From: Clostridia bacterium
GTDB lineage: Bacteria > Bacillota > Clostridia > UBA1212
Length of the DNA stretch: 37,814 bases
Direction of reading: 5' to 3'
Assembly (NCBI GenBank): GCA_017444825.1
Contig: JAFSVU010000017.1
Coordinates: 1-37,814 of the forward strand
A program made the position numbers and the translations under genes. Of the stretch, positions 712-27,291 are shown in pieces (position 1 is the stretch's first letter; each line of letters begins with the position of its first letter). The notes below the pieces were generated by a model. That model was given only the letters and a program-made list of their open reading frames with translations, ran no database searches and was not told the origin of the DNA.

Positions 712-3700
712 TCACAACCCGCTCTGCCCTAAGATGAATGCTATATCTTCGATTGTCGTATTAGTTACGGAGGAGTCGTCATCTGATATTATTTTATCAA
801 TAAGATCCTTCTTGATTTCCTGGAGTTCGATTACTCTCTGCTCGATGGAGTCCTCGGCGATTAACTTTATGACTTCAACATTGCGCTCCTGCCCTATGCG
901 GTGAGCTCTGTCTGAAGCCTGGTTCTCCGCAGCCGTGTTCCACCATGGGTCAAGATGGATAACCGTGTCGGCACCCGTAAGATTTATGCCGGTACCGCCG
1001 GCCTTAAGAGATATCAAAAAAACGTCGACTCCGGAATCCGAGTTGAACTCGTCGATCATCCTCGCCCTCTCTTCCCCGGAAGTATCGCCTGTAAACATAT
1101 AGTATGGTATGTTTAGCCGACTCAATACATTTTCCACTGTATTCAGACCTTTAACAAACTGAGAGAAGATCAGTATTCTGTGACCGTTTGAAATGTATTC
1201 CGGTACAAGTGACTCGATCAGATCCGCCTTTCCGGAACCGCCGTCATAGTTTTCAACGAACATGCCCGGATCAACGCACACCTGCCTCAGGCGCGTTAAA
1301 TACGACAGCATCTCAAAAGCATTTCCATCCCGTGAAAGCCTGTTTGCGGCATCCTCTCGAATCGCAGAGTATATTTTTCTCTGCTCGGGTGTCATCTCCG
1401 CAGAAAGAACCCTTTCGAATTTTGGAGGAAGGTCATCGAGAACATCCTCTTTCACCCTTCGCAAAATGAAAGGAGCCACTTTTTTTGCCAATTTTTCCGC
1501 AAATCCGTCCTCCAGTGCAGTCTCCGATTTAAAAACGCTGAAATCTTCAAAATAACCCGGCATTACATAGTCGAATATGCTCCAAAGATCCATTACACTG
1601 TTTTCGATTGGCGTTCCGGTGAGAGCAAGCCTATGGCAAACATTCAATTCCTTCACCGACTGAGTCTTCAACGCATTAACATTTTTTATGAACTGAGCCT
1701 CATCCAGTATTCCGAAGTTAAAAGTACCTGTATACAGCGAAACGTCATTTCTGAGAGAATCATATGAAGTGACATAGACTGCTTTTCTACCATAATTTAT
1801 TGAATTTATTATCTCACGGCGTTTTGCAACGCTTCCGTAAATCCCTAAAACAGGTGTATATCCGTCGAATTTCGAAAACTCATGTATCCAATTGAAAACA
1901 AGACTTTTAGGACAAACTATAAGGCTTGGTTTTGATGCTTTGTCGCTCTTTACGAGAGCGATTATCTGGGCGGACTTGCCAAGTCCCATATCATCACCCA
2001 GTATCCCGCCGATGTTGTATTTAGTAAGAATACTGAGCCATCGAAATCCCTCCTCCTGGTAGTCGCGTAGAGGAATCATGAGTTGCGGAATTTCTATATC
2101 GGCGCTTTTGAAATTTCTGATGTCCTCGATCATATTCCTGAGATATTTGTCGATGCGGCAATTCTTCTCATGGGCAAAGGCCTTAAGCGCAATAGACATC
2201 GGAACTGTCTTCTTTTTGTATAAGCTTGAAAAGTTCAGACCAAAGTCTTTCACCGCGTCCCCAAGTTCTCTCGCCTCTTCCCCGTCAAGGTCCACTATCC
2301 TGTCGGAGTCAAGCAAAATGAACTTTTTCTTCTTTTTTATGCCTGCAAGGATCTTTGCAAGTTCCTCTTCGGTAAACTCCCCCTCTTCCAGGAACACCTG
2401 CATAACGGTACTGTCCTTATACTTGACCCGTATAGTCTGTCTCTTCACCGATATTATCTGCTTGCGCTTCAGGGTTTCTGACAGGTACACATTGGCAATT
2501 CTCCGCAAATACGAGAAGTCCATCTTCATAAATGACAGTATCTTAGATTCTTCCTCGATCACGCCGTTTCTGAATCCGATCTCATCAAGATATCTCACAA
2601 ACTGCCCATATTTATCAAGGTCGATCTTTTCTACGATTTCATTTTTCCTTATTTCATCATTGTCCTTGGTTATTGATGTTTTTTCCGTTATTCTGCGATC
2701 GTCATAATCAAAATACACATTGATTTTTATCGCGCTGATTTTCAATTGATCTTTTATGGCCGGATCAACGTCGATGATATCAAAAAACCTTGCATAAATA
2801 TTCTTTCTGAAGTGGGAAAGAATAGGTTTTATAGAAACATCACTATTTTTGCAGGCAAAATCGATGATTTTCAGTTCATCCGATCTCATGTCGGCAATAT
2901 CGATCATATCTTTTTTATCGCCCGGTGATACGATATAGCCTGACGAGCCTAAACAAAAGAACTCTCCCCCGTTTAACTCCGGAATCATTTTGTAAGAGCG
3001 GTCGAGACTGATTTTAACTTTTTGAGGGGCGAGTCTGACCAATGCAGGTCTTTCTTCAAATAAAACAGTCCTCCCTTTCAGGAGTTCAAGTACCTGTTTC
3101 GCAGCGCCTCCGGGAATCGCAAAAAGTCTGTTGCGGTTTTCAAACCGAAACAGCGGATCTTTAACATTTATTGACAAAAGAATTCTCAGGATCGGAATGT
3201 CATCATTACAGAAGTTTGATGTTTTGTGTGTCAATACAAGGCCCTTGCCGTACTCCACTGTGGTCTCATTGGCGAATGCATTCAAAAAATCGGAAACGTT
3301 CTTAACAACATATTCTTTTTCGTTGCCCACTTTGAGTTCGACCATTAGATTGCCTTTATAATCCGTTGAAAAAGCATAGGACAGGTGTACTTTATTGGCC
3401 TCTGTCAGGTTGATGTGAACGTTTTCGAATGAATTGCAGAGAGACGTGTATCGTTCTATAAAGTAACTGTTTTCTCTCCTGAAATTATCTATGTCGATAG
3501 ATTCTCTAGTCTCGGAGTAAAGCCTCTTATAGCCTCCGGTATCAGCTTCAATGCATATTTCAGCTACGATCTCCGGATTGCAAACCTTAAGAACGCAATC
3601 TTTATCCGAAACTGTTGTTTTACCTTCATTCTCTCGGACCGAACTTGCAACGATCGTGCCATGCTCCGGATCAACGATATCGAATGTTGAAATCACATTT

Positions 3701-5294: not shown

Positions 5295-5804
5295 TTACCC
5301 AACAAACTCAAACGCCATCCTCGGCAAATGCTCTCTCACGTATATCGTCCCGCAGTGCCTGAACCCGTATTTGGTTAAAGCCGCTCTCATTGGCGCGTTA
5401 TTCTCGTGGGTGTCGGCCCTGAGGTGGCCGCAGATGCCTCTTGCGTAATCGCATGCGGTCTTCACGATGCCTCTGCAGCCTCTCTTTCCGGCGATCCGGT
5501 GAATGGTCACGTAGGGCTTGTCGGAGAGCCAATTGCCGTCGTCGATCACAGCGTATGTGGGATCATCACCCTCAAACAGGCAGAAGACCCCGCATATTTC
5601 AACGCCGCGCACAATGACCATGCTTCTGCCCTCCTCAACGTCCTCTTTAACCAAAGAGACGGGCGGGTAGTCACTGCCCCACTGGTTGGGATTGCCGTTC
5701 TTCCGCATGAAGACCCTCGCCCCTTCGTAAATCGAAAGGATCGTGGGCAGTTCCTGCGCAAACGCCTTCCTCACAGTGTATTCGGAAACCTCATCATCAA
5801 ACAC
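5295..5804 (-). CDS. GNAT-family N-acetyltransferase
   Basis: A 169-residue protein with the GNAT layout: an N-terminal helix with RKNGNPNQWGSDYPP typical of a clostridial GNAT subgroup, central strands (SMVIVRGVEICGVFCLFEGD), a degenerate acetyl-CoA pyrophosphate loop near KRGCRGIV (about residues 107-114), and the C-terminal NAPMRAALTKYGF signature. The substrate cannot be told. The start is GTG at 5802-5804 with AGGTGAGG just upstream. It lies between the heptamer-repeat gap (5819-6020) and the SNF2 helicase, 44 bases away, with which it is probably co-transcribed. Confidence 0.88.
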   Translation of the reverse strand: MFDDEVSEYTVRKAFAQELPTILSIYEGARVFMRKNGNPNQWGSDYPPVSLVKEDVEEGRSMVIVRGVEICGVFCLFEGDDPTYAVIDDGNWLSDKPYVTIHRIAGKRGCRGIVKTACDYARGICGHLRADTHENNAPMRAALTKYGFRHCGTIYVREHLPRMAFEFVG

Positions 5805-5818
5805 GTTTTAACCTCACC

Positions 5819-6020
5819 TGTTACTTAGTACCTGTTACTTCTTACCTTTTACTTATTACCTTGAGCGGCACTCCCTTGCGCCAGCCGCCTGTTACTTCTT
5901 ACCTTTTACTTATTACCTGAGCGGCACCCCTTCCGCAGGCACCTATTACCTATTACCTTTTACTTATTACCTAAGCGGCACTCCCTTAAACCTTTACTTA
6001 TTACTTTGTCCGGCACCGCT
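5819..6020. repeat. Intergenic heptamer repeat block A
   Basis: The gap between the ABC exporter and the GNAT gene is built of heptamers of the type TTACCTA, with variants TTACTTA, TTACTTC and TTACCTT. They are interrupted by GC-rich modules beginning GCGGCACTCCCTT or close to it (near 5865, 5921, 5975 and 6011). Block B (26682-26856) has the same two components. I see no coding frame or terminator here. Confidence 0.85.
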
Positions 6021-6027
6021 TATGCCA

Positions 6028-7800
6028 TTACTTTCCTTCAAACTGCAGCTTATACAGCTTCCAGTAATAACTGTGGTGCGACAGCAGTTCCTGATGCGTG
6101 CCTCTCTCGATTATCTCGCCGTTCTGCAGCACAATGATCTGGTCCGAGTGCTGGATGGTGGACAGCCTGTGGGCGACTATCAGCATGGTGCCGATACTGC
6201 GCATCTTCTCCAGGGACTCCTGTATCAGGGCTTCCGTTTCGGTGTCGATATTGGCGGTGGCCTCGTCGAGGATCAGGATGCTGGGCTTGTGGAGCACCGT
6301 GCGGGCAAAGGACAGCAGCTGGCGCTGGCCCTGGGAGAAGTTTTCGCCTCTATTGGCGACGGCGTCCTCATACTGCTCTGGCAGCTTTTCGATAAACGTG
6401 TCGGCATTGACGTATTTGCAGGCCGCCTTGATCTCCTCGTCCGTGATGGATTCGTCGTGGAGGGTGATATTGGTTTTGATGGTGCCCGAAAACAGGAACA
6501 CGTCCTGCAGCATCTGGCCCACGGCGTGGCGGAGCGACTTGATCTTGATGTGCTTTATATCCATGCCGTCGATCAGTATCTGGCCCTTCTGAATCTCATA
6601 ATTTCTTACAATGAGGCCGAGGATCGTAGTTTTCCCCGCTCCTGTGGCGCCAACAAACGCGCACGTTTGTCCCGGCTCGATCACGAATGACACGTCTCTC
6701 AGTATCCAGTTTTCGCCCTCGTATGCAAACCACACGTTCTTAAACTCGATGCGGCCCTTTACGTCCGTGAGATCAACCGCGTCCGGAAGGTCCCTCACCT
6801 CGGGCTTCACGTCAAGGAGATTGAACAGACGCTCTGAGGCGCTCCTTGCCTTCTGGATCTGATTCAGCTGGTCCGCAAGTTGCTGTACCGGGTTGAAGAA
6901 ACGCCCTGTATATAGGTAAAACGCAACAATGGAGCCCGCTGAGAGACCCATCTTTATGCCGAACCAGAATATCATGGCCATGGTGGAAATATACACCAAT
7001 GTCACAAACGGTCTGTAAATACCGAACCCCTTGATGACGTTGAACCTTGACTGGCGCATGGTGTTGTTCTTCTCGTCGAACTCGTCAAGCTTGCCCTTTT
7101 GGCGATTGAAGAGTTTGATGGTCTTCATACCCGACAGAGTCTCGTTCATAAACGCGTTAAGATCGGATATCGCCTGTCTTTCACGCTTGAAAGCGCCGCT
7201 GACGTACTTCGAAAAAATGAGGGATGACACGAATATCAGGGCCACCGAGATGAGCATCAATGAAGCCAGCTTCCAATTGATTACGTACATGATAACGTAC
7301 ACGCTGACCACCGTGAGCAGGTTTCTGATGACGCTGATGATCACATTGGTGAACATGTCGCTCATGGACTGGGTGTATGACGTGACCCTTGTGACCAATG
7401 ACCCCACCGGCATCTCCGTGAACTGCGAAAGGCTCATGCCCTCGATGTGGGAGAAGACCTCGATCCTGAGATTGTAGATTATCTCCTGGCCTGCCTTCTG
7501 AAGTATCATAGATTCAAAGTAGAGGAATACGTTGTTGATCGCGCAGATCAGGAGGTACACCACAGCCATCAGTATCACGTACGAAAGCACAGGCGTGTCC
7601 GACGACAGGTTGTCCGTCACCGCAGCGGTGATAAGGGGCAGAACAACGTCAAGTCCCACGTTTATAAGGATAAGTATGCCGGCAAGTATGAAGCGGCCGA
7701 TCTCGGGCTTAAGATATCCCGCGACCCTCTTTACAAACTCGCCGAGAGGTATTTTCTTGTCGCCCTTCAGGCGGTCTTTTTCGTCAACCATAACAGCCAT
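6028..7800 (-). CDS. ABC exporter half-transporter, catalytic subunit
   Basis: A 590-residue type IV ABC exporter half. Six membrane helices occupy about residues 35-320, followed by an ATPase domain with Walker A GATGAGKTT, Walker B ILILDEA with the catalytic Glu, and an intact H-loop (IVAHRLST). The ABC signature is unusual, FSQGQRQ instead of LSGGQ. Such a change is typical of one half of heterodimeric exporters (BmrCD, TM287/288), where it lies in the non-hydrolysing site. The start ATG overlaps the upstream subunit's stop by one base (TGATG), and its GGAGG lies inside that gene's last codons. Cargo could be drugs, lipids or peptides. Which one is not visible. Confidence 0.93.
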   Translation of the reverse strand: MAVMVDEKDRLKGDKKIPLGEFVKRVAGYLKPEIGRFILAGILILINVGLDVVLPLITAAVTDNLSSDTPVLSYVILMAVVYLLICAINNVFLYFESMILQKAGQEIIYNLRIEVFSHIEGMSLSQFTEMPVGSLVTRVTSYTQSMSDMFTNVIISVIRNLLTVVSVYVIMYVINWKLASLMLISVALIFVSSLIFSKYVSGAFKRERQAISDLNAFMNETLSGMKTIKLFNRQKGKLDEFDEKNNTMRQSRFNVIKGFGIYRPFVTLVYISTMAMIFWFGIKMGLSAGSIVAFYLYTGRFFNPVQQLADQLNQIQKARSASERLFNLLDVKPEVRDLPDAVDLTDVKGRIEFKNVWFAYEGENWILRDVSFVIEPGQTCAFVGATGAGKTTILGLIVRNYEIQKGQILIDGMDIKHIKIKSLRHAVGQMLQDVFLFSGTIKTNITLHDESITDEEIKAACKYVNADTFIEKLPEQYEDAVANRGENFSQGQRQLLSFARTVLHKPSILILDEATANIDTETEALIQESLEKMRSIGTMLIVAHRLSTIQHSDQIIVLQNGEIIERGTHQELLSHHSYYWKLYKLQFEGK

Positions 7801-26267: not shown

Positions 26268-26663
26268 TCAGAGCACTTCCCGAATCCTTTCAAGCACCGA
26301 AATATCCGCAGGAAGCCACTTCACGCTGTACAGGTCGTCCTTTCCCAGCCAGGCGGATGCCTCGTGCTCTTTGAGGACAAGATCCCCGTTTTTGACCTTT
26401 GCCCAGTAGCATCTCATGTCAATGTGGTATTCAGGATAATCGTAATGAACCTCTTCCAGAAAGCTCTCTATTTCGATCTCAGCGCCAAGCTCCTCCCTTA
26501 TTTCACGCGCCAATGCCTCCTCCGGAGTCTCATTCCCTTCGATCTTTCCTCCCGGAAACTCCCACCAGTCCTTATAGTTTCCGTATCCCCGTTGTGTCGC
26601 AAATATTTGGTTGCTTTCATTACGCAGCACCGCCGCCACGACTTTTATCGACCGTTCAGACAA
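26268..26663 (-). CDS. mutT: Nudix hydrolase, MutT type
   Basis: A 131-residue Nudix enzyme of normal length. The Nudix box is complete: GGKIEGNETPEEALAREIRE continuing ELGAEI (about residues 38-62). FPGG before it and KWLPADI near the end are typical of 8-oxo-dGTP diphosphatases, which remove oxidised nucleotides. The start is a TTG (26661-26663) with AGAAGG seven bases upstream; no in-frame ATG is better placed. The heptamer-repeat block B lies just upstream, and a terminator follows. Confidence 0.92.
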   Translation of the reverse strand: MSERSIKVVAAVLRNESNQIFATQRGYGNYKDWWEFPGGKIEGNETPEEALAREIREELGAEIEIESFLEEVHYDYPEYHIDMRCYWAKVKNGDLVLKEHEASAWLGKDDLYSVKWLPADISVLERIREVL

Positions 26664-26681
26664 TTAATTACCTTCTTTTTT

Positions 26682-26856
26682 AACTATTACCTGTTACTTT
26701 TTCCCTGCGCGGAACTCCCTTCGCGCAGCGACCTCTTACCTCTTACCTATTACCTATTACCTATTACCTATTACCTACGCGACACTCCCTTCGCGCAGCG
26801 ACCTCTTACCTGTTACCTCTTACCTATTACCTCAGCGGCACCCCTTCGCGCAGCGT
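26682..26856. repeat. Intergenic heptamer repeat block B
   Basis: Heptamers TTACCTA, TTACCTC and TTACCTG in tandem (for example 26731-26775 and 26801-26833) alternate with three copies of a GC-rich module: about 26704-26730, 26776-26800 and 26833-26855. The first module is an inverted repeat, CTGCGCG/CGCGCAG around GAACTCCCTT. The block fills the whole gap between the zinc-ribbon gene and mutT. It is the same element type as block A (5819-6020). Confidence 0.9.
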
Positions 26857-26859
26857 CCC

Positions 26860-27261
26860 TCAAATAAACTCCTCCGGCCTCTTAAGCTCCTTGAAAAAGT
26901 GGAAGCTGAGCATCTTGTTGCAATACGGGCACTCTGCAGCACCCTCCTTGTATCCCTTGCGGCGCTTAAAATCAAAATAGCCGAAATCCACACGCCTCCC
27001 GCAGGAAACGCAATTGGTCGAGTAATACACCTTGGCTTTTTCGGCGACAAGCCTCCTGTTGTACTTTGTAACGTCTATCGCGTTCAGTATTCCCATGACC
27101 AAAAAACTGATGCCCATGATCGAAAGGATCAAACCAATGACCTCAAAGCAGACGACCACCGTTCCGACGTAATCAAGCTTGTAAAACAGTATCGGCATGG
27201 CTATACCCGAGGTCAGCAGCAATCCGCCCCACACAAGCAGTTCAATTCTCTTTCTCTTCAT
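26860..27261 (-). CDS. Two-helix membrane protein with zinc ribbon
   Basis: A 133-residue protein that I cannot assign to a named family. Two membrane helices (about residues 9-27 and 32-60) are followed by a cytoplasmic part with CVSC (84-87) and CPYC (111-114), four cysteines that should bind one zinc. The start is ATG 27259-27261, five bases after GGAGG; an ATG just before it is too close to that site. It lies 30 bases past ThpR and probably belongs to the same operon. Confidence 0.78.
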   Translation of the reverse strand: MKRKRIELLVWGGLLLTSGIAMPILFYKLDYVGTVVVCFEVIGLILSIMGISFLVMGILNAIDVTKYNRRLVAEKAKVYYSTNCVSCGRRVDFGYFDFKRRKGYKEGAAECPYCNKMLSFHFFKELKRPEEFI

Positions 27262-27291
27262 CATATCCTCCAAACAGCGGTCGGGACACTT

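Follow-up and report, generated by a model that had tools for sequence, protein, structure and literature searches.

We conclude with high confidence that block B, a composite heptamer array, belongs to a dispersed mosaic repeat located at gene 3′ ends. The fuller reading, in which block B represents a BIME-like mosaic repeat, lineage-specific and non-autonomous, that is dispersed at gene 3′ ends, together with a filter acting on its two strands, is probable when taken as a whole. Within it, a Rho/translation strand filter would be the most likely single reason for the polarity of the repeat; we advance it tentatively from sequence features, and it ranks first, closely followed by true insertion specificity. 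Block B lies in the window, the whole stretch of 37,814 nt that was analyzed (contig JAFSVU010000017.1 of Clostridia bacterium assembly GCA_017444825.1). Heptamer arrays recur across bacteria, with no agreed role or spreading route, and the present family raises the question of how a repeat reaches gene ends only, and in one direction only.

Block B is a composite array between two co-directional genes

Block B spans positions 26668 to 26859 and is assigned, like its parts, to the minus strand; read as AGGTAA, it runs in the sense direction of the genes on either side. It fills the gap between the stop codon of a 137-aa gene without a Pfam match (26860 to 27273, minus strand), whose TGA stop at 26860 to 26862 abuts the array, and a NUDIX (mutT-like) gene with a TTG start (26268 to 26663, minus strand; PF00293, E = 1.1e-19), and thus sits downstream of the former and upstream of the latter. 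At the NUDIX side, the array closes with a degenerate heptamer (AAGGTAA, minus strand), and this overlaps the apparent mutT Shine-Dalgarno sequence (AGAAGG-TAATTAA-TTG).

Read on the plus strand, the heptamers have the form TTAC(C/T)TN and are arranged in two runs that are combined with three GC modules. The uninterrupted run (26736 to 26777) begins with TTACCTC at 26736 to 26742 and continues, by direct reading, with five unbroken TTACCTA units; TRF reports it as a period-7 tandem of 6.7 copies with 97% match. The second run, TTACCTG TTACCTC TTACCTA TTACCTC (26806 to 26833), was likewise found by direct reading and TRF. GC module 1 (26703 to 26728) contains a perfect 7-bp stem, CTGCGCG/CGCGCAG, with a 10-nt loop, GC module 2 (26778 to 26805) reads CGCGACACTCCCTTCGCGCAGCG, and GC module 3 (26834 to 26859), the stop-proximal GTGCCG module, reads AGCGGCACCCCTTCGCGCAGCG; all three share CTTCGCGCAGCG. 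Heptamer pairs match 17 times in the window at up to two mismatches versus 0.15 expected, with a maximum of one match in any of 100 dinucleotide shuffles. Rfam matched no family over block B.

These data agree with the sequence-only reading in its account of a TTACCTA tandem without interruption and of three similar GC modules, one with a perfect hairpin. The composite array that it delimited is real, but the true span is slightly longer; likewise, the array does lie 5′ of mutT, as that reading had it, but also immediately 3′ of the 26860–27273 stop codon.

All frames of the TTACCT strand are open (LPITYYL repeats), which gives rise to spurious long ORFs, for example at 26364 to 26867 (plus strand) of the window; such ORFs also occur at many array loci of other genomes.

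The composite recurs throughout the host genome

The analysis covered one genome of the species (2.45 Mb, 56 contigs, estimated contamination 3%). An 82-nt block B query gave 72 BLAST matches genome-wide, and a three-unit heptamer pattern gave 610 matches at up to two mismatches, with 0 for a reversed-pattern control. Within 362 kb of DNA sampled as stretches around the listed sites, 68 sites holding 421 of the 610 pattern matches were read, from which a family of about 100 sites is extrapolated, an estimate rather than a count; the sites are spread over more than 25 contigs. In particular, block A (about 5816 to 6034, minus strand), between the stop of an ABC transporter gene (6028) and a GNAT-like gene (5295 to 5804), is of the same composite kind as block B. 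Some unrelated loci have identical blocks of up to 81–83 nt in common, which indicates that blocks were copied between loci. Both the likeness of the two blocks and the idea of a dispersed element, proposed from the window alone, are therefore borne out, the latter also by array-free orthologous gaps in congeners described below; a lack of other genomic copies, named at the time as the finding that would speak against it, is contradicted by the BLAST matches.

The sites follow a common grammar. On the sense strand, a gene stop is followed within 0–40 nt by a GC module of the GTGCCGGAC or GTGCCGCTC type, then by AAAGTAATAAGTAA and (NAGGTAA)n. A small hairpin with a TGC loop leads on to the next GC module, where the series starts again, and some copies also include an 80-bp "module C". 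The GC modules read GTTWRA-[A/G]G[G/C]G-GTGCCG-GAC or -CTC ahead of AAAGTAATAAGTAA, and their GTGCCG elements point in one direction within any site. The small hairpins between the heptamers and the next GTGCCG module include CACTGCGTG, CTCTGCGAG and CGCTGCGCG. Module C occurs in 22 places at more than 90% identity, in one direction throughout, and carries a compensatory hairpin, TTCACGAAGTGAA/GCACGAAGTGC. Most arrays are impure, with mixed C/T and N positions.

Two further regularities are descriptive, being computed on related copies after the sites had been chosen: the GGAC-type module is first or second from the stop in 48 of 64 sites, and in the mini-hairpin NNC-TGC-GNN pair 2 is paired in 83% of cases versus 42% in shuffles. 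The covariation of the mini-hairpin is suggestive only. Stable RNA structure across the whole array was considered and rejected (mean z about −0.6 on both strands, which is not unusual). Additionally, a TTATAGG-A-rich module, GTTATAGG(G)AAAAA, was seen at eight sites, mostly at the far sense 3′ end (for example, L156, L161, L162, L181 and L183).

Arrays follow gene ends in one direction

Genes were placed with a dicodon gene caller that had been trained on the sampled stretches. With the arrays set in TTACCT orientation, the right-hand gene lies on the minus strand at 64 of 67 sites. The median distance from its stop codon to the last heptamer is 14.5 nt, to be read with the caveats that TAA/TAG of the AGGTAA strand can end frames at the array edge, most stops nonetheless preceding the array, and that a few lone heptamer-like words (such as AAAGTAA at a gene's own stop) were scored as array ends by chance. 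Between co-directional genes, AGGTAA is the sense strand in 36 pairs versus 2 with the opposite arrangement (p = 5e-9). The array-bearing gaps comprise 38 co-directional, 22 convergent and 1 divergent, versus 79, 8 and 25 among array-free gaps of at least 30 nt; arrays are frequent in convergent gaps and nearly missing from divergent ones (p = 6e-8), although the loci were picked for holding arrays, which biases occupancy fractions and leaves orientation unbiased. Overall, 26 of the 67 sites lie between convergent genes, and in convergent gaps the array is nearer to one of the two stop codons.

Replication direction was rejected as the cause of this polarity, because both array directions occur inside single loci of 10–20 kb (L143, L149, L160, L161 and L181). 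Stop codons may not be the only anchor, which could be the 3′ end of the transcription unit: at L177, a site with a distant predicted stop, an array in sense direction (about 3039 to 3216) begins about 22 nt after a 6S RNA gene (2817 to 3017, plus strand; RF00013, 56 bits) and shares its strand. At L183 and L184, the frame of the upstream protein continues into the array, where a heptamer or array TAA terminates it, which indicates that array copies altered protein C-termini. Annotation should take account of such altered C-termini, as well as of the spurious open frames that arrays create.

The diversity of these places speaks against phase variation, which the sequence-only reading had raised for the gene downstream of block B and in which heptamer slippage would switch the NUDIX gene on and off. 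The five identical TTACCTA units could slip, and other heptamer repeats are reported to differ between strains by 7-nt indels (PMC4679880). However, units are mostly impure, and the arrays are tied to the preceding gene's stop or 3′ end; the same arrays stand behind many unrelated genes, including the 6S RNA gene, and are common between convergent genes, which offer no downstream start. Unlike phase-variable contingency loci, the 68 sites lie beside diverse genes and are anchored at stops rather than in the reading frame or promoter of such loci. Phase variation was also judged unlikely for analogous heptamers by Rehm et al. (PMC4692102). The proposal thus finds no support here, and we regard it as very improbable.

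A role in translation, as 3′ UTR elements that place stops in all frames behind one gene and an SD-like AGGTAA before the next and that are kept by selection for read-through protection or re-initiation, would fit several of the same observations. Tandem TAGGTAA puts stops in every frame, the stop of the gene falls inside a heptamer at about ten sites, and of the arrays extending as far as the next start codon, about half have a heptamer AGG at SD distance. Yet an SD sequence is unneeded at the 26 convergent sites, the arrays are far longer than such a role requires, and a published test in eubacteria is reported to have detected no selection for additional downstream stops (PMC6764699). We therefore consider this explanation rather unlikely.

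The family spread within the host lineage

The composite motif was found in 0 of 397 other genomes of the phylum sample and in 0 of 8 other genomes of the family; none of 30 other genomes of the order contained heptamer triplets, and none of 390 others in the class contained module C. Viral contigs gave no match to the composite or module C, and phage origin was discarded. Tandem TTACYT was likewise absent from 651 kb sampled of the congeners G004 and G007, a sample mostly of G004, which has runs of N.

These two congeners are close to the host, with ABC transporter identities of 90% (G007) and 86% (G004). For eight sites of the host genome, both flanks were found in one G004 locus. Six of them, including block A, are cleanly read as array-free in G004 (block A, L141, L151, L173, L183 and L184); at L168, G004 is missing a gene as well, and L166, the eighth site, is outside the six clean readings. 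Specifically, the block A gap measures about 220 nt in the host versus a 150-nt unaligned gap in G004 and about 38 nt in G007, and G004 has an intrinsic terminator where the host has the array. The ancestral stop codons in the congener are mostly TGA. Because the congener has the same flanking genes without an array at six sites, we infer that the family spread recently within the lineage. For block B, the G005 homologue of the upstream gene is 36% identical and lies in another neighborhood, and no orthologous gap was found there.

The matched flanks also bear on an assembly or binning artefact, or a foreign contig, as the source of the arrays. The assembly is in 56 contigs with 3% estimated contamination, but the arrays lie inside contigs, beside unique genes and on more than 25 contigs, and eight loci have both flanks resembling one congener locus. 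Such an origin is extremely unlikely.

Outside the host, at least 118 stretches from many phyla match a four-unit TTACCT pattern exactly. Among the matches listed, and with a cruder gene caller, TTACCT arrays of other genomes stand in the two directions 32:31 between same-direction genes. The polarity was therefore rejected as a general trait of TTACCT arrays and is a property of the host family, not of the heptamer. The reversed control pattern, CCATTNTCCATTNTCCATT, has 15 exact matches in another genus of the order (G023), which may carry a heptamer family of its own.

A strand filter or guided insertion may account for the polarity

We propose that the repeat would spread by copying of existing blocks, through recombination or insertion, together with local tandem slippage, and that, because its two strands are not equivalent, copies would survive solely at the 3′ ends of genes and in a single orientation. 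In mRNA the AGGTAA strand would be harmless, with UAA/UAG in all frames and an SD-like AGG/GAGGU usable by the next gene. The TTACCT strand, in contrast, is rut-like (C-rich, G-poor and YC-spaced) and would cut off any gene transcribed past it. An array after a gene would thus be tolerated and may even shield that gene from antisense transcription, and an array upstream of genes read in the TTACCT direction would be barred. If Rho does load on TTACCT transcripts, arrays should be allowed after genes and between convergent genes and excluded between divergent ones, which is the pattern observed.

The composition of the TTACCT strand is consistent with this proposal. Rut sites combine a high C and a low G content with spaced YC dimers (PMC9160355). 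On the TTACCT strand, C minus G averages 19.5 in the best 78-nt window versus 8.4 in coding-antisense and 4.2 in intergenic sequence, and 88% of the arrays pass a regular-C-spacing test on this strand versus 18–47% of controls and none on the AGGTAA strand, which has the opposite composition. By composition, then, the TTACCT strand has both the C>G bubble and the regularly spaced YC dimers, and a rho gene is present in the host genome.

The evidence nevertheless speaks against the filter as the whole story. TTACCT arrays of other genomes lack orientation bias, also in groups normally having Rho, which means that the heptamer alone does not force the polarity and that the longer composite or the insertion route does; additionally, the position of convergent-gap arrays nearer to one stop codon is unpredicted by a Rho filter alone. 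A general replacement of intrinsic terminators was rejected, with a terminator-like hairpin after 23–30% of arrays versus 29–31% of array-free stops.

The alternative, which we hold possible at a lower probability than the filter, is an element, mobile or retro-copied, whose insertion is truly specific for gene 3′ ends, and in which the polarity comes from insertion and not from selection: a machinery would recognize the 3′ end of a transcription unit (the stop codon, the terminator or the RNA itself) and insert the mosaic sense-wise. The stop-proximal head grammar with its early GGAC-type module, the nearly uniform 22 copies of module C in a single polarity, the array after a non-coding RNA, the TTATAGG-A-rich distal end recurring at eight sites and a group II intron-type reverse transcriptase in the genome all favor such a route. 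Conversely, there is no target duplication or constant terminus at the sites read, where heads vary (P or MP), array ends blend into flanking sequence, and no enzyme is tied to the repeat. Insertion guided by TAA microhomology was rejected, as the congener stops are mostly TGA. A RAYT-mobilized REP was rejected as well: Y1_Tnp/RAYT (PF01797) had no match in the host's own genome, with matches in control genomes. In its strongest form, which we consider unlikely, the family would be a new type of selfish element, inserting with fixed orientation at the 3′ ends of transcription units, whether these encode proteins or 6S RNA. It would have rewritten the C-termini of genes and intergenic sequence at about 100 loci of a single species, with no known REP-type transposase involved.

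Two reverse transcriptases were noted, their types assigned by reading the sequences, and nothing found links either of them to the repeat. One, at L198 (G000:C29, about 20.6–21.2 kb), is a group II intron-type reverse transcriptase/maturase with a YADD motif and no array nearby. The other, at L199 (G000:C36, about 49.4–50 kb), is beside a protein whose C-terminus, SWSSSYGVRLCYRPLSA, is near-copied in an adjacent frame; the arrangement resembles a diversity-generating retroelement, including its template and variable repeats.

The strand filter, as the leading candidate, and guided insertion can be set against each other in this system, since a young and dense family with array-free congener sites makes the choice between guided insertion and strand-specific selection on termination testable.

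Comparison with known repeat families

Cyanobacterial STRR are short tandem heptanucleotides dispersed in one lineage; the host repeat differs from them in unit, phylum and composite build. TAACTGA direct repeats of Beggiatoaceae, cyanobacteria and Bacteroidetes (MacGregor 2015, PMC4679880) are similarly intergenic heptamers with stop codons on one strand only and a lineage-patchy distribution. They lie mostly just upstream of start codons, with 2–6 units in the type genome (PMC4679880), whereas the host arrays are mosaic and anchored downstream of stop codons.

BIMEs are high-copy, intergenic combinations of palindromic and other modules (PMC2817692), and the host family, with about 100 extragenic mosaic copies, is alike in these respects. 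However, the REPs in BIMEs alternate in orientation and are tied to RAYT (TnpA-REP), whereas all host modules point in one direction and the host genome is without Y1_Tnp.

The closest parallels in placement are the GGGAATC and GGGGA(C/T)T heptamers of Xanthomonas and Nostoc, which are intergenic and dispersed across the genome, mostly within 50 bp of a stop codon, have their G-containing strand as the coding strand and are under-represented between divergent ORFs (Rehm et al. 2015, PMC4692102). The host repeat shares with them 7-nt intergenic arrays near stops, a fixed relation to the coding strand and rarity between divergent genes. It differs in its unit (AGGTAAN/AAGTAAN, with at most GG), which, having no runs of three G, is no G-quadruplex former, and in being a composite with GC modules and the 80-bp module. 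Its positions are also not conserved, being absent from the G004/G007 orthologous gaps read, whereas 83% of the Xanthomonas repeats are common to two species (PMC4692102). Proximity to stop codons on the coding strand has already been published for the Xanthomonas and Nostoc heptamers; the strict polarity of the family is the new point here.
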